Positions 4,274-21,833 of a stretch of 64,000 nucleotides of DNA are shown here, in pieces. The stretch spans positions 1,754,995 through 1,818,994 of the forward strand of contig NZ_CVLB01000001.1 of the NCBI RefSeq assembly GCF_001049755.1. The letters run 5' to 3'. The DNA comes from Brachyspira suanatina (GTDB lineage Bacteria > Spirochaetota > Brachyspiria > Brachyspirales > Brachyspiraceae). Each line of letters opens with the position of its first letter. Position 1 is the stretch's first letter. The notes under the pieces are model-generated. The model was not told the origin of the DNA. It worked only from the letters and a program-made list of their open reading frames with translations, and ran no database searches. The position numbers and the translations under genes were made by a program.

Positions 4274-5548
4274 CTATTTAGACAATTTTTTTAAAGCTTC
4301 TTCTTTATTATTCTTAGCCTTTTCATAATTAGAATCTATCTCTATGGCTTTATCATAATCTTTTACAGCTTCTTCATATAATCCAATACTATATTTAGCA
4401 AATCCTCTGTTATTATAAGCATCTGCAGATTTAGGGGTTAATTCTATAACCTTATCGTAATTTTTAATTGCCTCTTCATAATCTGATAAATTATAATATG
4501 AAAGAGCCCTATTATAATAAGCATTTACATTATTATTATCTAATTCTATTACTATATCATAATCTTTTATAGCCTCATTATGAAGCTCCATATTATTTTT
4601 TGCAACTGCTCTGTTATAATATGCATCAATATATTTAGGCTCTATATTTATTGCTGTATTAAAATCTTCTACAGCTTCTTCATATAAACCTAATGCACTT
4701 TTTGCATTTCCCCTATTATTGTATGCATAAAAATATTTAGGTGATAATTCTATAGCTTTATCAAAATCTTTTATAGCTTCTTCATAAAGTCCTAAATTAT
4801 ATTCTGCTGTTCCTCTATTATTATAAGCATCTATATATTCATCATATATTTCTAATGCTTTATTTATATCTATTATAGCTTCATTATACAAACCTAATCC
4901 TATTTTGCATGCTCCTCTATTATTATAAGCATAAGAACTATTGGCATTAGAAATTTCTAAAACTTTATTATAATAAGTAATAGCTTCCTCATATAATCCT
5001 ATACTTCTCTTAGCATCCCCTATTCCATTATAGGCATATACTTCCGTATCATCTAACTCCAACACTTTTTTATAATCTTCTATAGCTTCAATATATTTTT
5101 TTGACATCAATTTTATAAATGCCCTATCTATATAAGCATCTATATTTCTGCTATCCAACACAATAGCTTTATCAATATCTTTTATGGCTTCTTCATAATA
5201 ACCTAAATTACCTTTAGCATATCCTCTATCATCATAAGCCTTTGAATGAGTAGGTACTAGTTCTATAACTTTATCATAATCTTTTATAGCTTCTTCATAA
5301 TAACCTAAATTGCATTTACAATTTGCTCTATTATAATAGAGTTCAGAATAGTTTTCATCAATTTCTATACCTCTACTATAGTAATTAATAGATTCTTCAT
5401 ATAAGCCCATAGCCTGTTTAGAAAGTCCCAAATAATTATATATTTCAGAATTATTAACATCTTCTTCTAATGCTTTAATGAATAACTCTGATGCTTTTTC
5501 AAACTGAGTTTCTCTAAATAATTGCAAACCTTTTTCAAAGTATGACAT
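4274..5548 (-). CDS. TPR protein, 12 tandem tetratricopeptide units
   Basis: A 424-residue protein made almost wholly of twelve 34-residue TPR units with the consensus AYNNRG-x-AK-x-x-LGLYEEAIKDYDKAIEL. The open frame runs further upstream to a GTG at 5617, but those codons are part of a repeat array. The ATG at 5548 (MSYFEKG) has AAGGAAG at the right distance and starts the first TPR helix. There is no signal peptide, so it is probably a cytoplasmic scaffold. The units are very similar to each other, so copy number could change by recombination. Six 106-bp hairpin repeats lie directly upstream in the presumed leader. The binding partner is unknown. Confidence 0.88.
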   Translation of the reverse strand: MSYFEKGLQLFRETQFEKASELFIKALEEDVNNSEIYNYLGLSKQAMGLYEESINYYSRGIEIDENYSELYYNRANCKCNLGYYEEAIKDYDKVIELVPTHSKAYDDRGYAKGNLGYYEEAIKDIDKAIVLDSRNIDAYIDRAFIKLMSKKYIEAIEDYKKVLELDDTEVYAYNGIGDAKRSIGLYEEAITYYNKVLEISNANSSYAYNNRGACKIGLGLYNEAIIDINKALEIYDEYIDAYNNRGTAEYNLGLYEEAIKDFDKAIELSPKYFYAYNNRGNAKSALGLYEEAVEDFNTAINIEPKYIDAYYNRAVAKNNMELHNEAIKDYDIVIELDNNNVNAYYNRALSYYNLSDYEEAIKNYDKVIELTPKSADAYNNRGFAKYSIGLYEEAVKDYDKAIEIDSNYEKAKNNKEEALKKLSK

Positions 5549-5561
5549 TATATCTTCCTTT

Positions 5562-6155
5562 ATTAATAAAAATTGTTCGCACATAATCTCTGACAAGTAA
5601 ACTTGCCAGACGCTCACAATTTTTATTTTAAAAATTATTTATTATTGCTAGCTATAAACTTTTTATTATTAATAAAAATTGTTCGCACATAATCTCTGAC
5701 AAGTAAACTTGCCAGACGCTCACAATTTTTATTTTAAAAATTATTTATTATTGCTAGCTATAAACTTTTTATTATTAATAAAAATTGTTCGCACACAATC
5801 TCTGACAAGTAAACTTGCCAGACGCTCACAATTTTTATTTTAAAAATTATTTATTATTGCTAGCTATAAACTTTTTATTATTAATAAAAATTGTTCGCAC
5901 ACAATCTCTGACAAGTAAACTTGCCAGACGATCACAATTTTTATTTTAAAAATTATTTATTATTGCTAGCTATAAACTTTTTATTATTAATAAAAATTGT
6001 TCGCACACAATCTCTGACAAGTAAACTTGCCAGATGTTCACAATTTTTATTTTAAAAATTATTTATTATTGCTAGCTATAAACTTTTTATTATTAATAAA
6101 AATTGTTCGCACACAATCTCTGACAAGTAAACTTGCCAGATGTTCACATTTTTTT
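5562..6155 (-). repeat. Six tandem 106-bp repeats, each with a nested hairpin
   Basis: Six copies with an exact 106-bp period (the same G falls at 5575, 5681, 5787, 5893, 5999 and 6105) run up to the TPR gene. Each unit has outer arms AATAAAAATTGT/ACAATTTTTATT and an inner stem TCTGGCAAGT/ACTTGTCAGA as read on the minus strand, then an AT-rich spacer with GCTAGC. The odd inner position is G·U on the minus strand but A·C on the plus strand, so folding favours minus-strand RNA, the direction of the TPR gene. Copies differ in graded fashion: CACATAAT in 1-2, CACACAAT in 3-6; ACGCTCAC in 1-3, ACGATCAC in 4, ATGTTCAC in 5-6. A degenerate related hairpin follows at about 6170-6190. Confidence 0.95.
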
Positions 6156-6219
6156 ATTTTGAAAGTATCTGGTAACTAAAGTTATCAGCTGCTCGTTTAT
6201 AGCCTTAAAATTAATACTA

Positions 6220-6258
6220 TTTATAATATATTTATTACAATGATAAATATATTATAAA
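6220..6258. repeat. Perfect 16-bp AT-only inverted repeat
   Basis: TTTATAATATATTTAT (6220-6235) pairs exactly with 6243-6258 across a seven-base loop. It lies 123 bp downstream of the Dpm1-like gene's stop and may be a weak terminator for it. The rest of 6156-6381 is AT-rich DNA in which I see no gene. Confidence 0.5.
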
Positions 6259-6381
6259 TAAATTTATCAAACTATAACAAAATTACTTTTTATATAATTT
6301 TATCTTATTGCTAATAAAATCAATTATTTTATTCTATTATAGATAAATAAACTTAACAAATTTTATAATATTCAAAAATTA

Positions 6382-7113
6382 TTATTTTGATTGATTATTA
6401 AAATATTTCTTCTTATTTCTAAATCTTAAACGTACAACTCTAAATAAAGCTTCTGCTATGATATTTTTAGACATTTTTGATTGTCCGCTTCTTCTTTCAT
6501 AAAATATTATAGGTTCTTCTTCTACTTTATAACCATTACTCTCAAAAGAATAATTCATCTCTATCTGAAAAGAGTATCCAGCTGAAAGTATATTATCAAA
6601 ATTCATATTTTTTAATACAGATACTCTAAAACATTTAAATCCGCCAGTAATATCCATAATTTTAGAACCCAACACAAATGATGCATATCTATTTCCATAA
6701 TATGAAAGAAAAAGTCTTCTCAGAGGCCAATTTACAACACTTATACCATTACAGTATCTTGATCCTATTAATAAATCTAATTTTTCATTTTCCATTCTTT
6801 CTATAAATATAATAACAAAATTAGGATCATGAGAGAAATCTGCATCCATCTCTATTACATAATCAGGATTGTATTGAAATGAATGTTTAAATCCAGCAAT
6901 GTATGCAGGTCCTAATCCTTCTTTCTTTTCTCTTTTCAGCAAATGCACTCTATTATTTGATAAATATTTTTCTACAACACTTGCAGTACCATCTGGGCTA
7001 TTATCATCAACAACTAAAATTTCTATATATTCAGGTAATGATAATACTTTATTAAGCATTTTTTCTATATTATCTTTCTCATTATATGTAGGTAATACTA
7101 TAATGGCTTTCAT
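6382..7113 (-). CDS. Polyprenol-phosphate mannosyltransferase (Dpm1-like GT2)
   Basis: A compact 243-residue GT2 catalytic domain without C-terminal membrane helices, like bacterial Ppm/Dpm1 soluble synthases. Visible motifs are IIVLPTYNEKDNIE at the N-terminus, VVDDNSPDGT, the metal-binding DADFSHDP, and a late GFKCFR…GYSFQIEMNYSF segment typical of dolichol-phosphate mannose synthases. It would make polyprenyl-phosphate-mannose (or a related sugar) at the inner face of the membrane. Its ATG overlaps the stop of the upstream DUF4132 gene by four bases (ATGA), so the two are translationally coupled. Mannose as the sugar is assumed from the family, not shown. Confidence 0.85.
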   Translation of the reverse strand: MKAIIVLPTYNEKDNIEKMLNKVLSLPEYIEILVVDDNSPDGTASVVEKYLSNNRVHLLKREKKEGLGPAYIAGFKHSFQYNPDYVIEMDADFSHDPNFVIIFIERMENEKLDLLIGSRYCNGISVVNWPLRRLFLSYYGNRYASFVLGSKIMDITGGFKCFRVSVLKNMNFDNILSAGYSFQIEMNYSFESNGYKVEEEPIIFYERRSGQSKMSKNIIAEALFRVVRLRFRNKKKYFNNQSK

Positions 7114-9815
7114 TTTATATCTGATTCTCTCCTATTCCTTTTTTGTATTTTTGTTGTTTTTTGCACATTTTTTTTAATATAATTATCTATATTAAACATT
7201 ATATATTTAACATACCTTACATATGATGTTCTAGGATCTATTATATTTTTATATGAGAATATTTCATTATTATCTATAGTATAAAATACAATATCTCCAA
7301 AGAGAATAATATCATTATCATCTATGGCATTATCCATACCCATTAGATTGATTTTTATTCCAACTGATATAGATGTGTCTATGATTTTATATCCAACTAT
7401 ATATGAATTCTCATAATCTAATTCCATATCAAGAGAATCACTCAAATTCTTAAAAGTTTTTATTTTTACTTCTTTATTTCTATATTTTACAATAATATTT
7501 TCTTTTATATCATCATCTTCAAAAGAGAAATTAATATTTTGCATTTGATTAAATGGCTGTTTTATTTTAAAATCTGTTAATAACTGCTTAGATTTTTTTA
7601 TTTCTTCATCTGTCATTTCTACAGGACTTGCCAATGATAATTTATAATTTTTATTTAATTTAACTTCTTCATTATTTTCTATTGAAAAGAAGGTATTTGA
7701 TTTTCTATCATATTTAACTTGTTGTAATATTTTGTCATTTTTATTATATATAGTCCATATAAAAATATCTGCCAATGTACTCATAATATAATTTTCTGCA
7801 AATAATTTTTTCCAATCATCTGAGATCCATTTTTTACCTGTCATTAATGCTTTGTTGAGTCTTGATGCTTGAAATTTATATGTAACTTTTATATTATTTT
7901 TTATGCTGTAAAATTCATCTAATAAATTTTTACTTATATTATGATATTTATCTATTTTGGATACATATTCTTTTTTCTTATTATCGAATATTTTTTCAAT
8001 ATCTAATTTTTCATTTATATACAATGTGAAAGAATAATAATCATCTTTTAATAATTTCTTACCTTCTTTGTCTATTCCAAAATCAAGTATTATATTATCA
8101 GATAGTTTATCTTCTGAAATATCCAATTTTTTTGCTGCAGCTTTAAATGCTAATTTTGAAGTATTTTTTATTTGATAATATTTAAAATTATTTGATATAT
8201 AATCAATAAGAATAAGAGAATAAAGACTTCCATTAAAAGCTAATGTAGATATTGCATAATTAGCTAGAGATATTCTTCCTGATTCGCACCATTCTTTCAA
8301 ATTATATCCAACTTTTTCTATTTTATAGTCTGATTCATATACTAAATATGGAATCATTACATATTTATAGGTTGTGTCAGCACCTTCAAATATCCATCTA
8401 TCATATATAGTTTTTATTACATTAATAAATGAATTAAAATCAAAATACGAGATTATTTTATCTAGATCTTTTATTTTTGTAGGAGCTTTTAATCTTGAAT
8501 ATTCTAAATATATATATTTAATTATAATTATAGGTATATTTTGATTAGAATCTTTGCTTTTTACTCCATACAATAAAGATTCATCTAAGCATAATAAATT
8601 TTTTTCAAATTTTTTATTATAGTTCTTATTTACAAAATTTACTATACTGTCAATATCTTTAAAACCAGAATTAATTATTTTTTTATTTTTCCATCTTTTT
8701 AATATATCTCTGGCTAAATCATTATCCAAAGTTTTTAAATATTCATAGGATTCTTTTTTCTTACGGTTAATTATTTTTATTGCAGCTTTTCTTATATTTT
8801 GAGATTTATTTTCTAAAAGTGAGCATAATATTTTACTTGATCCGAAATCTATTTCTTTACTGTAAAGTTCATTTAAAAATGGTATAAAGTTTTTACTGTT
8901 TTTGGTAACTCTTTTAACAAAATTTTTATTTGTAAATAAACTTTCAAAATATTCAGAATTCTTTTTAATAAGAGAGTAAAAGAAACTATTAAACTCTCTA
9001 TTTTTTATCTGAACAGCAAATGAATCATAGTATGATATTCTATCATTATAAGAATAAAAGAATATATAAGAAATAATAATATCAGCCAAAGTTACATTAA
9101 GATTAGTTAAATAGTCTAAACTTTCCTGATATGTTGTAGCAAATCCTTCTTTTCTTATCAACATCAAATAGGTTAATGCCTTGTAACTATTTGTTTTAAG
9201 TATTATATTAAGAAGTTTTTTAGATTTTTTTGAATAATCTGACAATAACAAAATATAATATATTCTATAATTATTTAATATTGAACTTTTTATAAATTCT
9301 ATATCATTATTACTAGGTGCTTTCTTTATATGATACGGCGTATAAGGCTTCAAAGCACTGAAATAACCGAATGCTGATTTTTTTACATGGAATTTTTTTA
9401 TTAAATCGTATCTCTTATCATCTTCGTATATTATATCATCATTTATTACAGTAATACTATTTGGAGTACCTAAATGTTCAACTACATTATATTTAACATA
9501 ATAAGAGTCATATATTTTCTGCATCAATAAATCTATTTTTTTATCAGCAATTTTTAAATTAGCTTTTTCATCTTCATTTCTTAATAGGATTGCTGTTAAT
9601 ATTAAATATATTCCGCAGTTATTACTAGTCTCTAATATTTTATATAATGAATAGAAATATTCTTTATCTTTATTATAAGTATAATTAGCCTCTCTTAGAA
9701 AATCCAAAGCATATATATCATTTTCTACTATTCCTCTATTGATAATACATATTTCTTTTTCTAAGTTGTATCCTTCATACCTTTTACTAAATAGAGAACT
9801 ATTAAATTTTTCCAT
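7110..9815 (-). CDS. Large DUF4132-domain protein (MolR/YehI-like)
   Basis: A 901-residue protein without signal peptide or membrane segments. The last ~250 residues fit the DUF4132 C-terminal domain: LNKALMTGKKWISDDWKKLF, then ADIFIWTIYN, then a LASPVEM segment and DFKIKQPFNQM. This pattern occurs in the E. coli MolR/YehI family, whose biochemical role is not settled. The long middle is helical and repetitive (NIRKAAIKIINRKKKES looks HEAT-like). The ATG follows AAAGAG. It shares ATGA with the downstream Dpm1-like gene, a pairing with no obvious functional reason. Asn, Lys and Ile content is very high, as elsewhere in the window. Confidence 0.7.
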   Translation of the reverse strand: MEKFNSSLFSKRYEGYNLEKEICIINRGIVENDIYALDFLREANYTYNKDKEYFYSLYKILETSNNCGIYLILTAILLRNEDEKANLKIADKKIDLLMQKIYDSYYVKYNVVEHLGTPNSITVINDDIIYEDDKRYDLIKKFHVKKSAFGYFSALKPYTPYHIKKAPSNNDIEFIKSSILNNYRIYYILLLSDYSKKSKKLLNIILKTNSYKALTYLMLIRKEGFATTYQESLDYLTNLNVTLADIIISYIFFYSYNDRISYYDSFAVQIKNREFNSFFYSLIKKNSEYFESLFTNKNFVKRVTKNSKNFIPFLNELYSKEIDFGSSKILCSLLENKSQNIRKAAIKIINRKKKESYEYLKTLDNDLARDILKRWKNKKIINSGFKDIDSIVNFVNKNYNKKFEKNLLCLDESLLYGVKSKDSNQNIPIIIIKYIYLEYSRLKAPTKIKDLDKIISYFDFNSFINVIKTIYDRWIFEGADTTYKYVMIPYLVYESDYKIEKVGYNLKEWCESGRISLANYAISTLAFNGSLYSLILIDYISNNFKYYQIKNTSKLAFKAAAKKLDISEDKLSDNIILDFGIDKEGKKLLKDDYYSFTLYINEKLDIEKIFDNKKKEYVSKIDKYHNISKNLLDEFYSIKNNIKVTYKFQASRLNKALMTGKKWISDDWKKLFAENYIMSTLADIFIWTIYNKNDKILQQVKYDRKSNTFFSIENNEEVKLNKNYKLSLASPVEMTDEEIKKSKQLLTDFKIKQPFNQMQNINFSFEDDDIKENIIVKYRNKEVKIKTFKNLSDSLDMELDYENSYIVGYKIIDTSISVGIKINLMGMDNAIDDNDIILFGDIVFYTIDNNEIFSYKNIIDPRTSYVRYVKYIMFNIDNYIKKNVQKTTKIQKRNRRESDIK

Positions 9816-9891
9816 AAATTACTCTTTAATGTATTTTAAAAATCATTATTATTATACTATTAATCAAGCAAATAATAAATACTATATTAAT

Positions 9892-10920
9892 TTACATGTT
9901 TTTAACTGCTAATTGTCCGCATCCTGCTAATATTTCTTGACCTTGTTTAAATCTTTCCACAACTTCTATTCCATTATCTTTTAATATGGATTTAAATCTT
10001 AATATAATATCTTTATTAGGTCTTTGTAATTCAGGAGCATGTTCCACAGGATTCATAGGTATAACATTAACTTTGAAAGGAAATTCTTTCTTTAAATTTA
10101 CGAGTCTGTATGCATCATTAACAGAATCATTAACATCTTTTATAAGCACCCACTCAAAAGTAATCATTCTTTTACCATTTCTGCTGTATCTTTTAAGTAT
10201 TGCCATAAGATTTTCTATAGGATATCTTTTATTAATAGGCATAATTTTATCTCTTACATCATTTTTTAATGAATGTAAAGAAACAGCCAATCTGCAATCC
10301 AAATCTCTTTCTATTAACTGCTTTATTCCTGCAACTTCTCCTGATGTTGATATTGTAATATGTCTTATGCCTAAATTAAAACCTTTAAATGAATTTATAG
10401 TATCTATTGCTTTAAAAAGGTTTTTAGTATTAGCTAAAGGCTCCCCCATACCCATAAATACTATAGAATTTACCTTTTTTGTTACAGCTCTCATAAGTAA
10501 AAATTCAGCAAGTATCTCATCAGCTGTAAGATTTCTTGATAGTCCCATACTTCCTGTAGCACAAAAAGCACATCCATAACCGCATCCTACCTGAGATGAT
10601 AAACAGAAAGTTACCCTGTCTTTTTTATTCAATATAACTGATTCTATTTTTTTCTTATCGTACAGGGAAATTAGCAACTTTTGTGTTCCATATTCATCTT
10701 CTGATATAGTTTCTATTTTTGAATTGTGAATAAAATAGTATTCATCTAATAAATTTCTCAAATTCTTAGGTATATTGCTCATATCCTCAAAACTTATAGC
10801 ATACTTTTTATATATCCAATTAAGTATTTGTGAGGCATGGAATTTAGGAAAATTATTTTCTATACAGAATTTAGATAATTCATCTTCTGAAACATTCATT
10901 ATAGATATTTTTTTAGCCAT
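9892..10920 (-). CDS. rlmN: 23S rRNA A2503 / tRNA A37 C2-methyltransferase RlmN
   Basis: A 342-residue radical SAM methyltransferase of normal RlmN length. The iron-sulfur motif is CGYGCAFCATGSMGLSRNL (C-x3-C-x2-C). GMGEPLANT and the ITISTSG segment bind SAM, and the C-terminal region ends EILAGCGQLAVKNM, where the cysteine in AGCGQL is the methyl-carrying catalytic residue. It methylates C2 of A2503 in 23S rRNA, and in some bacteria A37 of tRNA, with effects on proofreading and on antibiotics at the peptidyl-transferase centre. It stands 76 bp upstream of the DUF4132 gene on the same strand, so co-transcription is possible. Confidence 0.96.
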   Translation of the reverse strand: MAKKISIMNVSEDELSKFCIENNFPKFHASQILNWIYKKYAISFEDMSNIPKNLRNLLDEYYFIHNSKIETISEDEYGTQKLLISLYDKKKIESVILNKKDRVTFCLSSQVGCGYGCAFCATGSMGLSRNLTADEILAEFLLMRAVTKKVNSIVFMGMGEPLANTKNLFKAIDTINSFKGFNLGIRHITISTSGEVAGIKQLIERDLDCRLAVSLHSLKNDVRDKIMPINKRYPIENLMAILKRYSRNGKRMITFEWVLIKDVNDSVNDAYRLVNLKKEFPFKVNVIPMNPVEHAPELQRPNKDIILRFKSILKDNGIEVVERFKQGQEILAGCGQLAVKNM

Positions 10921-10963
10921 ATTTTAATAGTTAATAACCTCTTTAACTGTATTAAAATTATAA

Positions 10964-11058
10964 TAGCTGATAACATTATTATTCATAAGCTATCAGCTAA
11001 TTAATTTTTAAAAATTCATCGTATTATAAAAATATTTTATTGCTTATAACCTATAAGC
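10964..11058. repeat. Two short inverted repeats between rlmN and the FmdB gene
   Basis: TAGCTGATA (10964-10972) pairs with TATCAGCTA (10991-10999). GCTTATA (11042-11048) pairs with TATAAGC (11052-11058) around a three-base loop. The second lies just past the stop of the minus-strand zinc-ribbon gene and could act as a weak terminator, though its U-tract is poor. Confidence 0.4.
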
Positions 11059-11072
11059 TATTATTTAACCCC

Positions 11073-11312
11073 TCAGCAGCTTTTATTAGGAGTGCTTCCT
11101 GAATTACCGCTTGATGAACTAGAGCCGCCTTTATTTTTATAATCATTAACATAGAATCCTTTTCCTTTAAAAATGATACCGCTATTTAAAGATATCATTC
11201 TTTTTGCCTCGCTTCCGCATTCAGGGCAAGTCGCTTTAGCTTCAGCGGTTATTGATTGAAATTCTTCAAATTCATGTCCGCATTTTTCACATTTATATTC
11301 ATAAGTAGGCAT
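11073..11312 (-). CDS. FmdB-family zinc ribbon protein
   Basis: A 79-residue protein starting MPTYEYKCEKCGHEFEEFQ, with a second pair CPECGS: the CxxC…CxxC zinc ribbon of the FmdB/CxxC-CxxC-SSSS family. The C-terminus is a flexible Gly/Ser-rich tail (SSSSGNSGSTPNKSC), also typical. The family was named from a putative regulator of formamidase expression, but its general function is unknown. ATG is preceded by AAAGGAAAA. It is flanked by AT-rich gaps of about 150 bp on both sides and is probably monocistronic. Confidence 0.9.
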   Translation of the reverse strand: MPTYEYKCEKCGHEFEEFQSITAEAKATCPECGSEAKRMISLNSGIIFKGKGFYVNDYKNKGGSSSSSGNSGSTPNKSC

Positions 11313-11470
11313 AATTTTTTCCTTTTTAAACTAAAAATTAAATTATAATTTAATAATATATTATTTAAACAAAAATCTGTCAAGTGAATTTATTTCTACA
11401 TTATTATATTAGTATTTTATAATAATAAATTTTGATAATTTTTGTACTTAAATTAAATAAAGTAATATAA

Positions 11471-13024
11471 TTATAGTATAGCTTTATTTATTTCATTAAA
11501 TTTTTCTTTTAAAAGCATCATATAATCATGATATTTATTTGCAAGATTATCATCAGGTTCTATGATTGTACTGCCAATCAAAGAATTTCTTATATCATCT
11601 AATGAAATTTTTTTTCCTAATAATAAAACAGCAGATACAGCAGCACCAAGAGAAGCACCTCCTGAAGGAAGTATTTTTATAGGGCATTTCCAAATATTTG
11701 CTATTATTTTTAATATTTCTTTATCTTTTGTGGGACCTCCTGTAACAGCAATATCTATTTTATGAGAAGAAGTAAATTGCTCAGAGTATAAAGCTACTAA
11801 TCCCAAAGAACTTAATACTATTCCTTTATAGTCACTATCAAAAGAAGGAGCTGAATGATATCTTTTTATAGGGAATGCTCTGCTTATAGGCACTGATTCA
11901 TTTTCTTTCTGCCATAGAACAAGAGGCATATTGTCAATATTTTTTTCTAAAGATTCTGTAATTTCTTTATAATCTCTAGTATATAATTTCATGACTTCAT
12001 CCCATAATATAGCACCATTAGTTCGGCAGAATATCATAAAAGGATTTCCTATTCCATCATACATAGCATTTGATACTCCAGAATAATCTCTGCTGTTCTC
12101 ATCAATATCAAGCATATAGACAAAACTAGTTCCTAATGATAATATATCTCCTTTATATAAAACCTTTGTTTGAGGATTATCACCGCTTCCTATTCCAACT
12201 ATACATTCGCTGTCAAATCCATATTTTTCTATAAAATATTCGCTTACATATCCCGCAAAACTAGAAGGATCATTTATACTTCCTAATTTTTCTTTTAAAT
12301 CATTTGATACAGTATTTAATAAAGTGTCATTCCATTCCCTTTTTGTATAATCCATTAAACTCATTCCTGAAGCATTTCCAAAATCTACAGGTATATTATC
12401 TTTTGCTGTTAATATTGATGCTATAAATGTATTTAATAAAAATATTTTGTATGTGTTTTTTGATAAGTCTTGATTATTATCAAAATTATATTTTATTACA
12501 GCACCTGTAAATCTAAGAGGAGAATTTGAAGCTGTTATTTTTATCATATTATCCTTTCCGCCTACTGCATTTCTCAATTCTTCAGCCTGTTTTTGAGTGC
12601 ATGAAGTTCTCCATATAGGAGCATAATCATAGGAATATGAATTATTTAATATTTCAGCTAAACTATTATTTACTGATGATTTTTCCCTTAATTTTTCTAT
12701 ATTCGATTTATATTTTTCTGAAAGATAAACATGTCCATGCTGCTGAGCTGATATTTGTATTGCTTTTATATCTTTAGTATTGAATTGTTGTTTGAGCTGT
12801 AACAGAGCTTTATCTAATGCTGCTAAAAAAATATTTATATCCTGTTCAGCCTTTCCTTTTATATTTGAATCTATTAACAATGTATTTTTATTCATTTTTG
12901 AATATTTCATTTCTTCCAATGAATTGAATGGTATAGAAATATTTAATTCATTTTTATAATTTTCACAATTTATAATGCTTAAAGTGATACTTTGTGTACT
13001 TAAATCTATCCCTAATGTATACAT
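11471..13024 (-). CDS. FGGY carbohydrate kinase, xylulokinase-like
   Basis: A 517-residue FGGY-family sugar kinase: N-terminal ATPase lobe YTLGIDLSTQS, substrate-site motif ISAQQHGHVYL, and C-terminal lobe VTGGPTKDKEIL…PSGGASLGAA. The QQHG motif and APIWRTSCTQKQAEEL resemble the eukaryotic-type xylulokinase branch (XYLB), so D-xylulose phosphorylation feeding the pentose phosphate pathway is the best guess; another ketose is possible. A frame with a TTG start extends to 13039, but the ATG at 13024 has AAGGA seven bases before it and starts directly at the conserved strand. No isomerase or sugar transporter is next to it, which leaves the substrate open. Confidence 0.78.
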   Translation of the reverse strand: MYTLGIDLSTQSITLSIINCENYKNELNISIPFNSLEEMKYSKMNKNTLLIDSNIKGKAEQDINIFLAALDKALLQLKQQFNTKDIKAIQISAQQHGHVYLSEKYKSNIEKLREKSSVNNSLAEILNNSYSYDYAPIWRTSCTQKQAEELRNAVGGKDNMIKITASNSPLRFTGAVIKYNFDNNQDLSKNTYKIFLLNTFIASILTAKDNIPVDFGNASGMSLMDYTKREWNDTLLNTVSNDLKEKLGSINDPSSFAGYVSEYFIEKYGFDSECIVGIGSGDNPQTKVLYKGDILSLGTSFVYMLDIDENSRDYSGVSNAMYDGIGNPFMIFCRTNGAILWDEVMKLYTRDYKEITESLEKNIDNMPLVLWQKENESVPISRAFPIKRYHSAPSFDSDYKGIVLSSLGLVALYSEQFTSSHKIDIAVTGGPTKDKEILKIIANIWKCPIKILPSGGASLGAAVSAVLLLGKKISLDDIRNSLIGSTIIEPDDNLANKYHDYMMLLKEKFNEINKAIL

Positions 13025-13196
13025 ACTATTATCCTTCAAAATATTTGTTAAATTATTTTGTTAAAAACTATACATTAAAGGTATAAAAAATATATATGAA
13101 AAATTATTTTTTTAATATATTTTTGAAAATTAATTTATGTATTTTAATATTTGTAAAAACTGTATAAATATTTGTATGAGATTTAAAACTTATATA

Positions 13197-14906
13197 TTAT
13201 TTTTTGGCATGTTCAAGCATTTCTTCAGCATGTTTAATGCTTGCTTCTGTGATTTCTTTTCCTGTTATCATTCTTGCTATTTCTTTAACTCTCATACTAT
13301 CATCAAGTTCTTCAATAGTTGATGTAACGATATCATCACCTTCATTCTTTGTAACTTTAAAATGATTATTAGCATATATTGCAATCTGTGCCAAGTGAGT
13401 AACGCTAAGCACCTGCTTTCTTTTTGATAATGCTGCTATTTTTTCACCTATAACTTCGGCAATCCTTCCGCCAACTCCAACATCTATTTCATCGAATACA
13501 CAAGTTTCACAATAGTCCCCTAAAGAAAGTACATTTTTCAATGAAAGCATTATTCTTGATATTTCACCGCCTGATGCAATTTTTCTAAGAGGCTGAAACA
13601 TACTTTGCTTATTTGGCGCTATTATAAATTCTATATTATCAATACCAGTAGAATTAGCTTTTAAATTAGATCCGTCTATATTAAGTATACCGTCATCATC
13701 TTCATCTAAAGTTATTTCAACATCAAATTTCGTAGATGACATACCTAAATCATTCATCTCGCTTTCTATTGCTTTAATAAAATCATCTTTTCTGTTATGT
13801 CTTATATCAGATATTTCTTTTGCAAGTATAGAAGTTTTTTTTCTTAATTCTTCTATTTCTTTTTTTAAGTTTTCAATATCCTCTTCAGAGAAATTGAGAG
13901 AGTCTAATTTTTCTTTAGCTTCTTTGGCATAAGATATTATTTCTTTTATATTAGAACCATATTTCTTTTTTAGATTATTAATGAAGAAAAGTCTCTCATT
14001 AAGAGATTGAAGTTCTTCAGGATCAAATTTTGTTTTTGATCTTATTTCTGTTAAAACAGTTTTTATATCTTCAAGATTTAATGTTATACCTTCTATCTGT
14101 GATGCAATATCTGAAAGTCTGCTGTCGTATTTTGATATGCTTTGTAATGCTGAAATACTTCTTGTTAATTTTGTATAAGCTCCTGATTCGCTTCCAAATA
14201 TATCCTTATTAATAGAAGAAAGTGATGAAGCTATGCTTTCTGCATTTGACATCATAGTAATATCATTTTTTATATCATCATCTTCATTTGGCTTTAATTT
14301 AGCTTTTTCTATTTCATCTATAGCATATTCTAAAAAAGATTTTTCTTTTAATATGTTATTTTTATTCTGAGATATTTCATTATGCTGCTTTATTAATTTT
14401 GTAAGCTTATTATAATGATTTTTATAATTTTCTAATTTATCATCGATATTTAAATAACTATCATAAAAGTTTAAATGATTAGCAGGATTAAAAAGAGACT
14501 GATGTTCATGCTGTCCATGTATATCTACTATTAAATCACCAAGCTCTTTTAATTCAGCAACTTTAACGCCTACATTATTTATAAATGATTTGCTTTTTCC
14601 ATCTTTAGTAATTTCTCTTTTTATATTAAGCTCATCATTATTAATTTCTATATTCCATTCTTTTAATTTATTTTTTACGATATCTGCAGATGACTGAAGA
14701 GAAAAATTTCCTGAGACTATTAATCTGTCTCCATTAGCTCCAACCATTCTAGTAGAGCCTTTTTCACCTGTAATGAGTTCTAATGCACTGATTATAATAC
14801 TTTTACCAGCACCAGTTTCTCCTGTAAGCACATTAAAACCGCTGCTGAAATTTATTTTTAATTTATCTATTAATACAAAATTTCTAATTTCGAGATATTT
14901 AAGCAT
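13197..14906 (-). CDS. recN: DNA repair ATPase RecN
   Basis: A 569-residue SMC-like protein of usual RecN length. The N-terminal ATPase half has Walker A GETGAGKSIII and IHGQHEHQSLF; a long coiled-coil middle (residues about 150-370) is rich in Glu/Lys/Leu; the C-terminal half has the ABC signature region ASGGEISRIMLSLK, Walker B TCVFDEIDVGVGG and VTHLAQIA. RecN acts early in recombinational repair of double-strand breaks. It overlaps nadK by one base (TAATG), the common nadK-recN order in many bacteria. No LexA-type operator was recognised, and the upstream promoter would be that of nadK. Confidence 0.96.
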   Translation of the reverse strand: MLKYLEIRNFVLIDKLKINFSSGFNVLTGETGAGKSIIISALELITGEKGSTRMVGANGDRLIVSGNFSLQSSADIVKNKLKEWNIEINNDELNIKREITKDGKSKSFINNVGVKVAELKELGDLIVDIHGQHEHQSLFNPANHLNFYDSYLNIDDKLENYKNHYNKLTKLIKQHNEISQNKNNILKEKSFLEYAIDEIEKAKLKPNEDDDIKNDITMMSNAESIASSLSSINKDIFGSESGAYTKLTRSISALQSISKYDSRLSDIASQIEGITLNLEDIKTVLTEIRSKTKFDPEELQSLNERLFFINNLKKKYGSNIKEIISYAKEAKEKLDSLNFSEEDIENLKKEIEELRKKTSILAKEISDIRHNRKDDFIKAIESEMNDLGMSSTKFDVEITLDEDDDGILNIDGSNLKANSTGIDNIEFIIAPNKQSMFQPLRKIASGGEISRIMLSLKNVLSLGDYCETCVFDEIDVGVGGRIAEVIGEKIAALSKRKQVLSVTHLAQIAIYANNHFKVTKNEGDDIVTSTIEELDDSMRVKEIARMITGKEITEASIKHAEEMLEHAKK

Positions 14907-15775
14907 TATCTACCCCAATTAAGTTTATTCCTAAGTATATCATAAAATAGTCTTTTTGAACTTTGAAATATATAACAATTTTTATTGCTGATTTTTGCTA
15001 TTATCTTATCATCATTTTTAAATTGACATATATCATATCCGTCTATTGTTATCATAGCCTTTAATGATTTTTCTGTCAATTCTAACTCTATATTATCGCA
15101 TTTAGGAATAACAAGCGGTCTGAAAGTCAATGAATGAGGCGCTATAGGTACAAAAGATATTGCATCAATGGTAGGGGCAAGTATAGGACCTCCGGCACTT
15201 AAAGCATAAGCTGTTGAACCTGTGGGAGTTGCTATTACAACACCATCGCCAACTATTGAAGATATTAATTTACCCGATATTGTAATGTTTATATATATTG
15301 CTCTGCCGTCACATTTTCCTAAAACTAATTCATTTACAGCAAGATATTCTTTATATGCCTTATTTCCTTTTGAATAAATATTTACAGATAATAATGTTCT
15401 AGGCTCTATTTCATATAATGTTTTTTTATCCTCAAAATATTCTTCTAATATTAAATATGCTTCTTCAGGAGGTATTTCTGAAATAAACCCTAATGTACCA
15501 TTATATATAGGAAGAACTGATATATCGTATTTTATAGCTATTTTCAAAGCGGAAAGCAATGTTCCATCTCCACCTATTGATATTAACATTGACACATTTT
15601 TTAATTCTTTTGCTGCTTTTTTTATATTATTGTGAGATGATATATCATAATCTATTATTATAGCTTCTATATTATATTTTTTTATTATACTATTTATTTT
15701 TTTTAAAATTCCATCAGTATCAGTTCTAAGAACATTAACTATGATTCCTATTTGTTGCTTTTTTCTATTGTTCAT
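14906..15775 (-). CDS. nadK: NAD kinase
   Basis: A 289-residue ATP-NAD kinase making NADP. Diagnostic motifs: the catalytic MLISIGGDGTLLSALK (GGDGT), the NE in YLAVNELVLGKCDGRA, and the glycine-rich PTGSTAYALSAGGPILAP. It has the usual bacterial length. The stop overlaps the recN start by one base, so the two are translationally coupled. Upstream are 112 bp to the plsC start on the other strand, which must hold divergent promoters. Confidence 0.97.
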   Translation of the reverse strand: MNNRKKQQIGIIVNVLRTDTDGILKKINSIIKKYNIEAIIIDYDISSHNNIKKAAKELKNVSMLISIGGDGTLLSALKIAIKYDISVLPIYNGTLGFISEIPPEEAYLILEEYFEDKKTLYEIEPRTLLSVNIYSKGNKAYKEYLAVNELVLGKCDGRAIYINITISGKLISSIVGDGVVIATPTGSTAYALSAGGPILAPTIDAISFVPIAPHSLTFRPLVIPKCDNIELELTEKSLKAMITIDGYDICQFKNDDKIIAKISNKNCYIFQSSKRLFYDILRNKLNWGR

Positions 15776-15887
15776 AATTATTAATATTGATTTAATTAAA
15801 AAAAATTTCTATTAATTATACCAAACAGTTATCAATATATCAAGTTTTATATTGATAATTTTTTATTTTTATAATAAACTATCTACT

Positions 15888-16634
15888 ATGATACTATTTA
15901 GTTTAATTTATTTTTTATTAAGTTTTATTTTTACATTATTATGCGTAATTATTGCATTTTCAGCTTATCCTTTTATAAGATTATTCTCTAAAAGAAAAGC
16001 TTCACAATATGTTCATAGTATGGCGAAATTTTGGGGAAGCTCATTAATGAAAATGGCATTTATTTCTTTCAATATTGAAGGAAAAGAAAATTATGATCCT
16101 AGTAAAACTTATTTATTAACACCAAATCATCAAAGTGCATTTGACATATTTGCATGCTTCAGCATATTTAAGAAATCATTTGCATTCGTTTCAAAGGATA
16201 CTTATGGAAAAGTACCTTTAATTGGTTTTGGTATGTCGCTTTCTAATTATATATTTGTTAAAAGAGGTACTGTTGGTGCTGTAAAATCTATAGATGATAT
16301 GGAAGACAGATTAAAAAATAACATAAGTGTGGTTATTTATCCTGAAGGAACAAGAAGCGCTACTGGTGAAATAAAAAAACCTAAAAGAGGAATATTAAAA
16401 ATAGCAGAAAGATGTTCAGATATACCTGTTCTGCCTGTAGTTATATATGGTACTAAAGATATTATGAAAGCTAGAACTATTAAAATTACTCCATTTAAAA
16501 AGATAACTGTTAGATTTTTAGAACCTTTCTATTTCAAAGATATAAATGGCGATGATAATGCTAAATTAGATTATTGGTATGATATTATGACTAAAAATTA
16601 TAATGAATTAATAGATAAATTAATTTCAAAATAA
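15888..16634 (+). CDS. plsC: 1-acyl-sn-glycerol-3-phosphate acyltransferase
   Basis: About 248 residues: an N-terminal hydrophobic helix, then the acyltransferase blocks NHQSAFDIFACF (catalytic NHx4D), FVKRG, YPEGTRSATGE and PVLPVVIYGT. PlsC adds the second acyl chain to lysophosphatidic acid to make phosphatidic acid at the membrane. An upstream in-frame TTG at 15852 gives a longer frame, but the ATG at 15888 begins right at the membrane helix; neither has a strong ribosome site, so the start is uncertain. It is divergent from nadK and has no obvious operon partner downstream. Confidence 0.9.
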   Translation: MILFSLIYFLLSFIFTLLCVIIAFSAYPFIRLFSKRKASQYVHSMAKFWGSSLMKMAFISFNIEGKENYDPSKTYLLTPNHQSAFDIFACFSIFKKSFAFVSKDTYGKVPLIGFGMSLSNYIFVKRGTVGAVKSIDDMEDRLKNNISVVIYPEGTRSATGEIKKPKRGILKIAERCSDIPVLPVVIYGTKDIMKARTIKITPFKKITVRFLEPFYFKDINGDDNAKLDYWYDIMTKNYNELIDKLISK

Positions 16635-16970
16635 ATTTTTTTAATTATATAAAATCAATATAAACAATACTAATTAGTATATTTACTAATAAATGTTTTC
16701 AGTAAAATTTTACACATTACAATCATACTAAAAATTGATTAATTTAAAATATTTTTACTAATAAACTTACTTATTCATAATTATTGTATATTAATTATTA
16801 TATTTGTTATTTGATAGTAATTTATATATTACATATATAACAAAAAAATGTACATTATTTTCATACTATACTTGAAAAAAATAATCTTCATATTATAATA
16901 TTCAATAATATATACATATTATGTGTTTATATTAAACAAAAAAATCACTTAACAAATTAGGAGTATAAAA
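16635..16970. other. 336-bp non-coding AT-rich gap upstream of the hydrogenase
   Basis: No gene seen. It holds a short inverted repeat after plsC (ATTAGTA 16673-16679 with TACTAAT 16684-16690), the 12-mer TTTACTAATAAA twice (near 16683 and 16755), and a good promoter close to the hydrogenase gene. The length and repeated 12-mer leave room for a regulator site, but none is identified. Confidence 0.5.
16872..16899 (+). promoter_or_regulatory. Sigma-70-type promoter for the hydrogenase gene
   Basis: TTGAAA (16872-16877), a 16-bp spacer and TATAAT (16894-16899), about 70 bp before the GTG start. Confidence 0.6.
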
Positions 16971-18443
16971 GTGAATATTAATAATAACGCTTCTCAGTTA
17001 AAAAAAGAGATTTTGGTAAAGATAGCATTAATGTTTATTGAGGATAGACTTATAGAAGATATTGACAGATTACCTATAGAGATAATACCTAGAGATAGCA
17101 AATCTATAAGATGCTGTATACACAACGATAGAGAAATCATCAAAAATAGAATTATGGCAAGACTTGGAATAAGTGTTGAAGGTAAAGAGGATAGCGGAAT
17201 ACCATTATCTGAATATGCTAAATTGGCATTAGATAGAGATAAACCTACTTGGCCTATGCTTACTGTATTAGATGAGGCTTGTAATGCATGTGTAAGAGCT
17301 AATTTTATGGTTACTAATGCTTGTCAGGCTTGTTTGGCTAGACCTTGTATGGTTAACTGTCCTAAAGATGCCATAACTATATTAGATGAAAAAAGAGCTC
17401 ATATAGACAGCTCTAAATGTATAAACTGCGGATTATGTTTAAAAAACTGTCCTTATCATGCAATCATTTATATACCTGTACCTTGTGAAGAATCTTGTCC
17501 TGTAGGTGCCATTAATAAGAATGATCAGGGAAAAGAAGTAATAGATTATCATAAATGTATATTCTGTGGAAACTGTATGAGAGAATGTCCTTTCAGTGCT
17601 ATGATGGATAAGGGACAGCTTTTAGATGTACTTAAGCATTTAAAGGCAGATGAGAAAGTTAATGTAATGTATGCTCCTGCTATAGCTTCTCAGTTTAATG
17701 CTAAACCTGGGCAATTAAAAAGTGCTTTATTAAAAATAGGATTCAATAAAGTTTGGGAAGTTGCTTTGGGTGCTGATGTTACTTCTGACAGAGAAGCTGC
17801 AGAATTCGAAGAGAGAATGGAAAGAGGAGATAAATTAATGACCACTTCATGCTGTCCTGCTTATGTTAAAGCTGTTAGAAAGCATGTACCTGAACTTATT
17901 CCTTGTGTATCTGAGACTAGAACTCCTATGCATTATACAGCTGAAATGATGCATGAAGATGATCCTGAAGCTGTTAATGTATTTATAGGACCTTGTCTTG
18001 CTAAAAGAAGGGAAAGTATAGATGATGATTTAGTAGATTATTGTTTATCTATGGAAGAACTTGATGCTTTATTCATAGCTACAGGTACAGATGTGGCAAA
18101 AGAACCTGATTTAAATATAGAAACTGTTCCTACTGCTTCCGGAAGAAAATATGCTGTAAGTGGAGGTGTTGCCGAAGCTGTTAAAGTAAGATTAAAACAC
18201 CCTGAAAAATTGAAAGCTACTGTTATTAACGGACTTGATAAAGAAGGTATGAAACAGCTAAAAGGCTATGGAAAGGTTCAGTCTGGAGAAATTCCTGTTA
18301 CAGATGATACACCTAATCTTGTTGAGGTTATGGCTTGTAATGGAGGCTGTGTTGGAGGACCTTGTGTAGTTAAAAATCCTAAAGCTGCTGCTGTTCAATT
18401 ACAAAGATACGCTTCTACAGGTACTGAGGTGAAAAAAGACTAA
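16971..18443 (+). CDS. [FeFe] hydrogenase, group B type, single subunit
   Basis: A 490-residue [FeFe] hydrogenase. The N-terminal part has a Cys-rich segment (CNACVRANFMVTNACQACLARPC) and ferredoxin-like 4Fe-4S clusters (CINCGLCLKNCP, then CIFCGNCMRECP). The H-cluster domain shows all three cysteine motifs: TTSCCPAYVKA, GPCLAKRRE and EVMACNGGCVGGPC. The second motif has GPC where classical enzymes have MPC, and the layout fits the poorly studied group B of anaerobes. It would couple ferredoxin oxidation to hydrogen formation, or sense hydrogen. Start is GTG with TTAGGAG seven bases before. It is monocistronic with its own promoter and terminator; no HydE/F/G maturases are in the window. Confidence 0.9.
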   Translation: MNINNNASQLKKEILVKIALMFIEDRLIEDIDRLPIEIIPRDSKSIRCCIHNDREIIKNRIMARLGISVEGKEDSGIPLSEYAKLALDRDKPTWPMLTVLDEACNACVRANFMVTNACQACLARPCMVNCPKDAITILDEKRAHIDSSKCINCGLCLKNCPYHAIIYIPVPCEESCPVGAINKNDQGKEVIDYHKCIFCGNCMRECPFSAMMDKGQLLDVLKHLKADEKVNVMYAPAIASQFNAKPGQLKSALLKIGFNKVWEVALGADVTSDREAAEFEERMERGDKLMTTSCCPAYVKAVRKHVPELIPCVSETRTPMHYTAEMMHEDDPEAVNVFIGPCLAKRRESIDDDLVDYCLSMEELDALFIATGTDVAKEPDLNIETVPTASGRKYAVSGGVAEAVKVRLKHPEKLKATVINGLDKEGMKQLKGYGKVQSGEIPVTDDTPNLVEVMACNGGCVGGPCVVKNPKAAAVQLQRYASTGTEVKKD

Positions 18444-18471
18444 TAATTTTATTTTATAAAATTTAATAAAC

Positions 18472-18515
18472 AAAAAAGGCAGAAGTCTTATATTAGACTT
18501 TTGCCTTTATTTTTT
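18472..18515. terminator. Bidirectional terminator between hydrogenase and ankyrin genes
   Basis: A 14-bp stem with one G·U pair (arms 18475-18488 and 18495-18508), A-run on the left and T-run on the right, in the gap between convergent stops. It serves both strands. Confidence 0.9.
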
Positions 18516-18524
18516 ATATAATTA

Positions 18525-19166
18525 TCAATCAGTTAATAATTTTTCTATATTTTTTAAATTTCTTGCTTTAGCATAATATAGCGCATCATGCCCATTTTTA
18601 TCTTTTATAGTTTTATCAGCACCATGTTCTAATAAAAGCTTAACTATTTCTACATAATTTAAACTATCATTTCCAAGTATAGTAACTTCAAGTAAAGCTG
18701 TAAAAGATAAATGATTTATATGATTTACATCTATATCAGTGTTTTCAAGAAGGAATTTTACTGTACCAAGATGTCCTTTTTCACATGCTGGTATTAAGGC
18801 ATTTCCGCCAAAAATATTTAATACATTTCTAGTATCAGCTTTTTCATATGTGAGTTTTACTATATCAAGCATTCCATTTGCACATGCATATAGAAAAGGT
18901 GAATTTAATTTTGCATCTTGTATATTAACATCAGCACCATTATCAACTAAAAGCTTAACCATTTTTACATAATTTTTATATGTAGCTATCATTAAAGGGG
19001 TTCTCTTTTTTTCATCTTGTAAATTTACATTTATACCCATTTCTATATATTCTTTTACAGATTTAATATCTCCGCTATGTACAGCAGAAAAAAAATCACT
19101 TCTAGTATCTGCAAATAAAGCAATATTCGTATATAAAATAAAAGCAAATATAAAAAATAATTTCAT
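18525..19166 (-). CDS. Exported ankyrin-repeat protein
   Basis: About 213 residues. The N-terminus MKLFFIFAFILYTNIALFAD is a Sec signal peptide; about five ankyrin repeats follow (KRTPLMIATYKNYVKMVKLL, NGADVNIQDAKLNSPFLYAC, GGNALIPACEKGHLGTVKFL and so on, ending HDALYYAKARNLKNIEKLL). The ATG at 19166 has GGAG six bases upstream and gives the clean signal peptide, so the in-frame ATG at 19196 is less likely. Ankyrin repeats mediate protein binding; a periplasmic or surface location is inferred from the signal. The partner is unknown. Expanded ankyrin families are common in intestinal spirochaetes. Confidence 0.88.
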   Translation of the reverse strand: MKLFFIFAFILYTNIALFADTRSDFFSAVHSGDIKSVKEYIEMGINVNLQDEKKRTPLMIATYKNYVKMVKLLVDNGADVNIQDAKLNSPFLYACANGMLDIVKLTYEKADTRNVLNIFGGNALIPACEKGHLGTVKFLLENTDIDVNHINHLSFTALLEVTILGNDSLNYVEIVKLLLEHGADKTIKDKNGHDALYYAKARNLKNIEKLLTD

Positions 19167-19371
19167 AATTACTCCAAATATATTTAATTTATTCATTATT
19201 TAAATATAACAAATCTTTTTTTGATTAGTTTTATTAATATAGTTTAATTATAGTTTTTACAACTATATAAAAGTACATTATAAATAGAGTTTTTATTATA
19301 TTTTTAATAATGATATTTAAAAAATATCCGAATAATTATTAAAGAAATATAATAGTAATTGGGACTTGAAA

Positions 19372-20784
19372 GTGCATTATATAGGTTTTTTAATAGCTTT
19401 TATTTTATATTTTACAGCCAACTTAAATGCTGTTGTTTATGATGTTTTTTCTAATACAAATAACATTTATTATAGTACATTAAATAATTTTACTAATAGT
19501 TATATATTATATGATAGTGACTCGGCACTTAACTACTTAACAGGAGACACTGCACTTGATTCTAGTATTTTACAGGGACTTATATACAGTAAAGATATTA
19601 AAAGTATAGAAGGTGCCAATGGAGGAGATGCTGTATTTTTTCATAATATTAAATCTTATATAAAACTTGATTATTATACAGGAGATGGTACACATAACTT
19701 TGAAGATACTATGACAAGTTTTACTTTGGAATTTTATTTGAATCCTTATAAAATAAGAATGAATTCTCAAGTACTATCAAAAACAGCTATATATAATGAA
19801 AACGGTATTACAAAATCTTCAGGCATAAAAGCTAATATTGTTAATGGAAGATTAGTTTGGCAGTTTAATAATTTATTCTCTTATAATGGTGTATATACAA
19901 ATGTTATGTTAACTCAAGGAGAATATTTAAAAGAGAATGAATGGAGACATCATAGTGTAAGTTTCAATGCTGCTACAGGAAAATTAGTAAAATATATAGA
20001 CGGACTTGAAGAGCAAGTGATATATTTAACTAGTACTGGCGATGAAACAGGTTCTCCTTATACTATAGAATTTGATAATATAAAATTGGATCCTTTATAT
20101 TTAGGAAATGGTTTTATAGGTGGACTAGATGCTTTTTATTTTACACCTCGTTATAAGCAGACTTTTAATTTATATCCTTATACAGCAGATGGTGAAATAA
20201 TAAGTAAAGTTATAGATTTTGAAAATAAAAATACATTTATTGACTCTATAAATTATATTGGAAATTCTACAAATGGAAGTTATATAGATTTATATTATAG
20301 AACTTCAGATTATTATTTTGCCCCTGAAGATGTTAATATAGCTTGGGAGCCTTTAAAAAATCATACTAATATAATGACAAATACAATGACTAGATATGTT
20401 CAAGTTAGAGCAGTATTAAAGAGCAATGTAGATAGAAATGTTACACCTGTATTGAATAATGTTTCTATAAATTATCATAATCCAAGAAAGCCTTTAGTAC
20501 CATCTAATTTAACAGCTACTGCAATGAATGGAACTTCTGTTATGTTAAAATGGAATGGCTCTCATGAAAATACATCAGGATATAAAATTTATTATGGAAC
20601 AAAATCAGGAGTATATAATGAAGCACAATATACGCCTATAATAACAGAAAATGTAAATGAATATATAATAGAAGGACTTGAAGAAGGAAAGGTTTATTAT
20701 TTTACCGTTACAGCTATAGGCGGAGAGGGCGGAAATATAGAAAGCAGTTTTTCTGAAGAAGTTTATGTAAGACCAATTCAATAA
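19372..20784 (+). CDS. Secreted LamG-like / fibronectin type III protein
   Basis: About 470 residues with a signal peptide (VHYIGFLIAFILYFTANLNA). Residues about 90-250 look like a concanavalin-A/LamG-type jelly roll (FTLEFYLNPYKI, NEWRHHSVSFNAATGKLVKYIDG, LGNGFIGGLDAFYF). The C-terminal ~90 residues form a fibronectin type III domain (PSNLTATAMNGTSVMLKWNGS to GLEEGKVYYFTVTAIGGEGG). It is probably a periplasmic or surface glycan- or protein-binding protein. Start choice: GTG at 19372, seven bases after GGGA, rather than TTG at 19366, which is too close to that site. A TPR protein follows after 14 bp with its own AAGGAG, so they form an operon. Confidence 0.78.
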   Translation: MHYIGFLIAFILYFTANLNAVVYDVFSNTNNIYYSTLNNFTNSYILYDSDSALNYLTGDTALDSSILQGLIYSKDIKSIEGANGGDAVFFHNIKSYIKLDYYTGDGTHNFEDTMTSFTLEFYLNPYKIRMNSQVLSKTAIYNENGITKSSGIKANIVNGRLVWQFNNLFSYNGVYTNVMLTQGEYLKENEWRHHSVSFNAATGKLVKYIDGLEEQVIYLTSTGDETGSPYTIEFDNIKLDPLYLGNGFIGGLDAFYFTPRYKQTFNLYPYTADGEIISKVIDFENKNTFIDSINYIGNSTNGSYIDLYYRTSDYYFAPEDVNIAWEPLKNHTNIMTNTMTRYVQVRAVLKSNVDRNVTPVLNNVSINYHNPRKPLVPSNLTATAMNGTSVMLKWNGSHENTSGYKIYYGTKSGVYNEAQYTPIITENVNEYIIEGLEEGKVYYFTVTAIGGEGGNIESSFSEEVYVRPIQ

Positions 20785-20798
20785 AAAGGAGTATGAAC

Positions 20799-21662
20799 GT
20801 GTCTACTAATACTAAAGCAATGAAATTAAGTAATCTTGCCGAAGAATTATTAAAAAAAGGAGTAAATGAAGAGGCTATAGAAGCCTTGAAAAGAAGTATG
20901 AGATTAAGTACTTCTGATGATATGAAAGCATATTTACAAGTTGCTGTTTCTTTATTTGAAAACGGCGATTATGAACATGCTAAAATATTTTTAAATACTT
21001 TTTTAGAATATTGGATGGCAGCCGAAGCATATTTCATTTTAGGAGCTATTGCTAAAAAAGAATATAGATTAGAAGAAGCTTTTGAACTTTACAGAAAAGG
21101 TATTACTTTATATACTTCATCAAACCTTAATCCTTATTATGAGTTTTTATCTTTATGTACACTTCTTAAAGAAGAAGATAAAGGATTGGAAACTGCTAAA
21201 AATGTACTTAAAATCAATTCTAAAGATAGAGTTGCTTTGGTTTATATGGCTAATTATTTCTTTAGAAATAAACTTTATAAAGAAGCTATGAATTTTTATA
21301 AAATATTAGTTGATAATAAGCTTGCTGATCATAATGACTACCATTATTATGGAGTTTGCTTGCATGAAATTAAAGATTATAAAAAAGCAGAAAATATGTA
21401 TTTGCAAGCATTAGCTATGTATCCAGCTGATACTCCTGAAGTGTTGGCTCTTAAAAATCTTAGAAGCAAAACATTAAAAGACAATTATCCTAATTTAAAA
21501 GAAAGTAAAGAAAAATATACAAATAAAATAAAAGAAAATCCTGAATCAAGTGATTATTTCCATTTAGGCAATATTGAATTTATTGATGGAAATTATGAAA
21601 AGGCAGCAGAATTCTATTCTAAAGCTAAAGAAGTTTATGAAGAGAAGGTTTGCATTTTATAA
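20799..21662 (+). CDS. Cytoplasmic TPR protein
   Basis: About 287 residues of TPR-like helical pairs (LAEELLKKGVNEEAIEALKR, YEHAKIFLNTFLEYWMAAEA, YHYYGVCLHEIKDYKKAENMY, YFHLGNIEFIDGNYEKAAEFY). There is no signal peptide. An ATG at 20793 lies only two bases after AAGGAG; the in-frame GTG at 20799 is seven bases from it and is the better start. It is downstream of and probably co-transcribed with the LamG/FN3 surface protein, so a role in that protein's assembly is possible but unproven. Confidence 0.8.
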   Translation: MSTNTKAMKLSNLAEELLKKGVNEEAIEALKRSMRLSTSDDMKAYLQVAVSLFENGDYEHAKIFLNTFLEYWMAAEAYFILGAIAKKEYRLEEAFELYRKGITLYTSSNLNPYYEFLSLCTLLKEEDKGLETAKNVLKINSKDRVALVYMANYFFRNKLYKEAMNFYKILVDNKLADHNDYHYYGVCLHEIKDYKKAENMYLQALAMYPADTPEVLALKNLRSKTLKDNYPNLKESKEKYTNKIKENPESSDYFHLGNIEFIDGNYEKAAEFYSKAKEVYEEKVCIL

Positions 21663-21820: not shown

Positions 21821-21833
21821 ATAGAAATATATT

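Follow-up and report, generated by a model that had tools for sequence, protein, structure and literature searches.

A dispersed palindromic repeat of Brachyspira forms a tandem hairpin array upstream of a TPR-repeat protein gene

A tandem array with a period of exactly 106 bp and 98% identity between units was found between a glycosyltransferase gene and a gene for a TPR-repeat protein in Brachyspira suanatina (positions refer to the window, i.e. the whole analysed stretch of 64,000 nucleotides; Table 1). Judged from its sequence, the array unit is one dispersed palindromic element, A, together with an arm of a second palindrome, B, that encloses A. The identity of this unit as a dispersed, gene-oriented repeat of Brachyspira is well supported by the copies recovered from the genus. 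The best explanation, to which we give an even chance, is that a MITE-like repeat was tandemly amplified at the TPR gene and that its copies are transcribed together with their neighbours, the resulting RNA hairpin tuning or insulating the adjacent cistron. It is favoured because of the dispersed family, the compensatory changes in the inner stem, the promoter-ATG distances in relatives, the sense orientation of the copies, an insertion with a known empty site, and the excess of G·U pairs in the sense RNA.

Structure of the array

Five of the array units are full length, and unit 6 ends after its own hairpin. The initial annotation of this DNA had described six 106-bp hairpin units in front of the TPR gene, a description confirmed by TRF (98% matches, 0 indels) and by six hairpins, one of 63 nt in each 106-bp unit, detected with a covariance model. 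Its statement that differences accumulate in steps along the array held as well: relative to unit 1, units 1 to 5 carry 0, 0, 1, 2 and 3 substitutions, respectively, and the changes of hairpin 5 are also present in hairpin 6. When one unit was folded as RNA, the minus strand reached -25.0 kcal/mol (z -4.2) and the plus strand -15.1 kcal/mol (z -2.2), consistent with the earlier reading of the single odd inner pair as G·U in minus-strand RNA. What had been missed is that the unit is a dispersed element and that a second palindrome frames the array. In addition to the copy listed in Table 1, the left arm of palindrome B is repeated in the array at 5647-5659, 5753-5765, 5859-5871 and 5965-5977. 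The unique spacers of a CRISPR array are absent; each unit directly adjoins the next, and near-identity extends over all 106 bp.

Table 1. Features of the array and its surroundings in the window.
Feature	Position	Strand	Evidence
TPR-repeat protein gene, downstream of array	4274..5547	-	ORF; ATG at 5547
Shine-Dalgarno region (AAGGAAG), directly after hairpin 1	5548..5561	-	sequence; relatives share layout
Tandem array	5560..6164		TRF: period 106, 5.7 copies, 98% matches, 0 indels
A hairpin copy 1, nearest TPR gene	5565..5627	-	covariance model, 85.8 bits
A hairpin copy 2	5671..5733	-	covariance model, 85.8 bits
A hairpin copy 3	5777..5839	-	covariance model, 85.2 bits
A hairpin copy 4	5883..5945	-	covariance model, 78.4 bits
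A hairpin copy 5	5989..6051	-	covariance model, 79.8 bits
Palindrome B left arm (GCTAGCTATAAAC), copy able to pair with right arm	6071..6083		sequence; same arms in dispersed copies
A hairpin copy 6, alone still within both palindrome B halves	6095..6158	-	covariance model, 64.4 bits
Palindrome B, single right half: inner hairpin CTGGTAACTAAAGTTATCAG and right arm GTTTATAGC	6169..6203		sequence; B elements elsewhere
Best promoter-like site above array (TTGTTA-18-TATAAT)	6251..6280	-	weak; number of sites not above chance
Glycosyltransferase gene, upstream of array	6382..7113	-	ORF; orthologous loci

Arrays of the same element at other places have periods of 72, 82, 89, 107, 109, 130, 146-148 and about 190 bp. 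Tandem examples, those of two other genomes included, comprise seven copies at a period of 82 bp, five at 72 bp, four at 107 bp, four at 130 bp and five at 89 bp. As these periods are unrelated, the 106-bp period is not a design feature. Helical phasing was therefore ruled out, and the proposal that repeated sites on the same helix face serve multi-site protein binding found no support, given periods ranging from 72 to about 190 bp. The array is most simply explained by tandem duplication of an "A plus B arm" unit from one nested A-in-B element, because one closing B half remains distally and the closest relative at the TPR locus, genome G007, keeps a single A-in-B element.

The start of the TPR gene was placed at the ATG at 5547 because the orthologues begin there; this likely start codon is 17 nt past the final hairpin, with AAGGAAG in between. 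The gene also holds, at 4509-5001, tandem DNA repeats (102 and 204 bp) that fit its TPR units. Elsewhere in the window (53925-54030), a perfect heptanucleotide repeat, TAGACTG, occurs in 15 copies and separates a minus-strand ORF from a plus-strand ORF; it contains stop codons and is therefore unlikely to be a reading-frame switch.

A dispersed element in the genus Brachyspira

The initial annotation had proposed a search for the unit elsewhere in the genome, and this search revealed dispersed copies across the own genome and the genus. With two units as BLAST query, 37 matches were obtained in the own genome assembly (3.26 Mb, 34 contigs), the array itself included. A covariance model with 24 pairs was then built from 29 diverse copies, in whose alignment seven of the ten inner-stem pairs are changed on both sides. 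In the own genome the model matched at least about 66 copies, distributed over 46 places (E up to 0.001), or at least 59 at a stricter threshold. At the stricter threshold the element was matched in 23 of 26 Brachyspira genomes with a maximum of at least 80 copies per genome; 150 candidates were scored per genome, so that the element counts are possibly low, and the weakest matches may be other palindromes. Copies were fetched place by place, and their gene context was taken from simple ORF calls.

Full-length copies carry additional imperfect inverted repeats outside the A core of about 63 bp, and the nesting of A in B was found at other places in the same genome. At loci L020 and L027 a further type of intergenic palindrome, with a TAAA loop (AGCTAGTGAGTAAACTCACTAGCT), was seen near A and B elements, which suggests a larger superfamily. 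Among the Rfam 15 covariance models none matched the hairpin element, and a known RNA family was thus discarded as its identity. A literature search, thin on subscription journals, yielded no earlier description of the repeat family in Brachyspira.

As in MITEs, the copies are short, AT-rich, numerous, dispersed and mainly intergenic. Terminal inverted repeats of the MITE type are imperfect: the whole element is palindromic, and its arms are extended in full-length copies. An Rpn-like gene at locus L195 (G000:C1:1826110-1827000) is interrupted by a related hairpin of about 75 bp, placed immediately upstream of the Shine-Dalgarno sequence and ATG of an internal ORF; the paralogue L191 represents the empty site. 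This single clean empty site offers no unambiguous target-site duplication, both the target and the element end being T-rich. The internal ORF of L195 matches RpnS, the intragenic antitoxin of E. coli (PMC10327210), in position and may be its equivalent.

This copy inside an Rpn-like gene is one of several observations that link the element to such genes, and it might be taken to mean that Rpn-like (TIGR01784) nucleases mobilise the element as their substrate. Seven copies in the own genome overlap the stop codon of an Rpn-like gene at one fixed offset, as do copies in genomes G009 and G004, although such an offset may derive from gene duplication. In several of these overlaps the stop codon is the TGA of the hairpin's GTGAG. 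The loci concerned are L156, L159, L165, L167, L169, L170 and L180, with hairpins of the same architecture; L156 has five hairpins in succession, and the gene-end sequence recurs between them. Across genomes the copy numbers of element and Rpn-like genes are correlated (Spearman 0.62), but genomes G001, G003 and G012, with 28, 15 and 13 Rpn-like matches, contain only 1, 0 and 2 elements (150 candidates scored per genome), and the hairpin is missing from those Rpn-like genes that were sampled in G001 and G012. Furthermore, at rpn genes Zhong et al. report neither inverted repeats nor target duplications (PMC10327210). Mobilisation by Rpn-like nucleases is considered unlikely. Since many Rpn-like genes coexist with almost no elements in three genomes, these genes are not sufficient for the presence of the element and were rejected as sufficient mobilisers.

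Orientation and position relative to genes

The sense strand was defined as the strand carrying the GAG...CGA core. In the own genome, the element is sense to both neighbours at 26 of 29 places between co-directional genes (14 of 15 above 55 bits). Corresponding values are 30 of 35 in G009 and 15 of 16 in G004, which gives 71 of 80 for the three genomes combined; some of the sites are orthologous between genomes, and the counts are thus not fully independent. GC3 skew defined clear replichores, and the elements showed no preference for the leading strand (53 of 103). In gene pairs on the lagging strand the element is still sense in 31 of 36 cases (p 1e-5). Insertion specific to one replication strand was therefore dismissed as the source of the orientation, which could nevertheless stem from an insertion preference instead of function. 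The 3' end of the element is often located 17-23 nt ahead of the next start codon, against the Shine-Dalgarno sequence, and some copies directly follow stop codons.

The TPR locus in related genomes

A full-length TPR orthologue is present in 15 other genomes, six of which have elements together with the usual upstream region and eight no element; in the remaining one, G007, a single element is combined with an altered neighbour. In the six element-bearing relatives, one to three elements are located between the promoter region and the Shine-Dalgarno sequence. A TTGACA-16-TATATT promoter precedes the TPR ATG by 35-40 nt in six genomes without the element and by 115, 186 and 243 nt in three that bear it; in G004, G005 and G006, where the element is present at the TPR gene, the promoter hexamers are degenerate. 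The longer promoter-ATG distance places the element in the inferred 5' leader of those relatives.

The adjacency of glycosyltransferase and TPR genes is confined, among the genomes compared, to the window genome and G007, and the closest named species for the flanking glycosyltransferase is B. hampsonii. An inversion of about 15 kb in these two genomes (window ~6200-21900) swapped the upstream region of the TPR gene; its former upstream neighbour is now about 15 kb away in opposite orientation, beside an NMT1-like gene. The inversion removed the ancestral promoter and the best remaining site is not above chance, and for this reason only analogy with the relatives suggests that in the window genome, too, the array is part of the TPR 5' leader. 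The earlier proposal of a structured leader whose length varies thus agrees with the comparison with six element-bearing relatives, but not directly with the window genome, whose old promoter was replaced via the inversion. One breakpoint adjoins the array, in weak support of the recombination hot spot that the initial annotation had also considered; the reciprocal junction carries no element, so that the inversion was not attributed to homologous recombination between two copies of the element.

The initial annotation had named absence or scrambling of the array in close strains, with no effect on expression, as evidence against its proposal. Absence was found in part: eight relatives lack the element, whereas six relatives and G007 have it. 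The array is therefore dispensable, which does not mean that it is without effect.

The T-tract in the 3' arm (ACAATTTTTATT) raises the question of a terminator or attenuator, i.e. a hairpin with A-tract and U-tract that halts some transcripts, such that six copies cut read-through into the TPR gene. The T-tract is, however, itself base-paired, with a bulge between it and the strong inner stem. The position of certain copies directly after stop codons would suit a terminator, whereas a terminator between promoter and gene would silence the gene wherever a copy occupies that position. Although the element-free gap in the orthologous locus of G018 (L154) contains a palindrome followed by T's, a consensus scan of 5400-6500 for a G+C-rich stem followed by a T run gave 0 terminator-like sites. 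We regard termination as unlikely.

Predicted RNA structure and strand signal

In 88 non-redundant copies, G·U pairs in sense RNA outnumbered those in antisense RNA by 75 to 28. When orientation was assigned by sequence motif only, the excess was smaller (56 to 38), and the sense fold was more stable in 38 of 48. For the 22 highest-scoring own copies, one window copy included, the ratio was 11 to 4, which is not significant. The core GAG(C/U)...(G/A)CGA occurs in sense in 48 of the 88 copies and in antisense in 1; this count is descriptive rather than independent because the covariance model was built on copies with that core. Arms and inner stems vary between sub-types of the element, and the conservation of the core in many copies despite stem variation may point to its recognition by a protein or RNase.

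These features also bear on the possibility, less likely but still plausible, that the interspersed repeat is purely selfish or neutral, with the array as its tandem satellite and no useful effect on the TPR gene. The gene-wise orientation would then arise because insertion is linked to transcription or because harmful antisense insertions are purged. Copies are gained and lost from species to species, both at the TPR gene and at one further locus, numerous arrays have unrelated periods, and one copy interrupts an Rpn-like gene, all as expected for such a repeat. In contrast, the compensatory inner-stem changes, the core common to the sub-types and the sense G·U excess suggest that a structure is maintained, although mobility alone could also preserve a DNA hairpin.

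Discussion

For the co-transcribed MITE-like repeat, we infer an effect on expression and the following mechanism. Element A would insert in a MITE-like manner beside translation starts or stops and be co-transcribed with the neighbouring gene. The transcript would fold as a long RNA hairpin with a tandem G·A internal loop, which may alter mRNA decay or processing and insulate the next ribosome-binding site, in line with reports on Correia and BOX repeats. At the TPR gene, "A plus B arm" would have been duplicated in tandem from a single nested A-in-B, a state that persists in G007, and the tandem copies might scale or buffer the effect of the hairpin on the mRNA.

A more far-reaching proposal, put forward tentatively, is that the element is a genus-wide structured RNA module that has come to occupy leaders and intercistronic gaps in sense orientation and controls decay or translation of the next cistron, its strength being set by tandem number. 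Likewise tentative is the architecture assigned to such a module, with variable outer and inner stems around a tandem G·A internal loop, a 2-bp helix and a 7-8-nt 3' bulge.

The TPR locus provides a natural experiment in which the number of copies ahead of the ribosome-binding site of one gene ranges, across 16 genomes, from none through one or several to six. With an orientation that follows genes in three genomes and the replication strand excluded, the element is well suited to studying at what point a selfish palindrome turns into a regulatory RNA. Copy-number differences are potential typing markers if strains within one species vary.

Comparison with known repeat systems

REP sequences and BIMEs, associated with RAYT transposases, are likewise dispersed extragenic palindromes, sometimes in regularly spaced groups (PMC2817692). 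BIMEs contain REPs in alternating orientation, whereas the Brachyspira copies are arranged head to tail. A search of the own genome for the REP-associated Y1 tyrosine transposase (PF01797) gave 0 matches with positive controls, and a REP/RAYT system was discarded on this basis.

The BrickBuilt MITE of Porphyromonas gingivalis is MITE-like, intergenic and contains a tandem repeat (PMC4596501), but its repeat measures 23 bp compared to a Brachyspira unit of 72 to about 190 bp with a complete hairpin. Correia repeat enclosed elements of Neisseria are also small palindromic repeats, often located 5' of genes, and a transcript is cleaved by RNase III at a Correia element between the native promoter and mtrCDE (PMC2649163). 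They differ in their TA target sites and in that they may carry promoters and an IHF site (PMC2649163); the Brachyspira element often occurs in tandem arrays, and no target duplication could be cleanly defined for it.

BOX elements of Streptococcus pneumoniae are interspersed, extragenic and predicted to form RNA stem-loops once transcribed; they are composite, with an internal module, boxB, in variable tandem number and a proposed effect on co-transcribed genes (PMC3049150). They belong to a different genus, and the likeness is one of description, not of sequence alignment. Unlike in BOX, the repeated module in Brachyspira is a whole hairpin plus an arm of the second palindrome, and orientation follows genes. 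By analogy, the modularity of BOX is matched by one A-in-B in G007 and six in the window.
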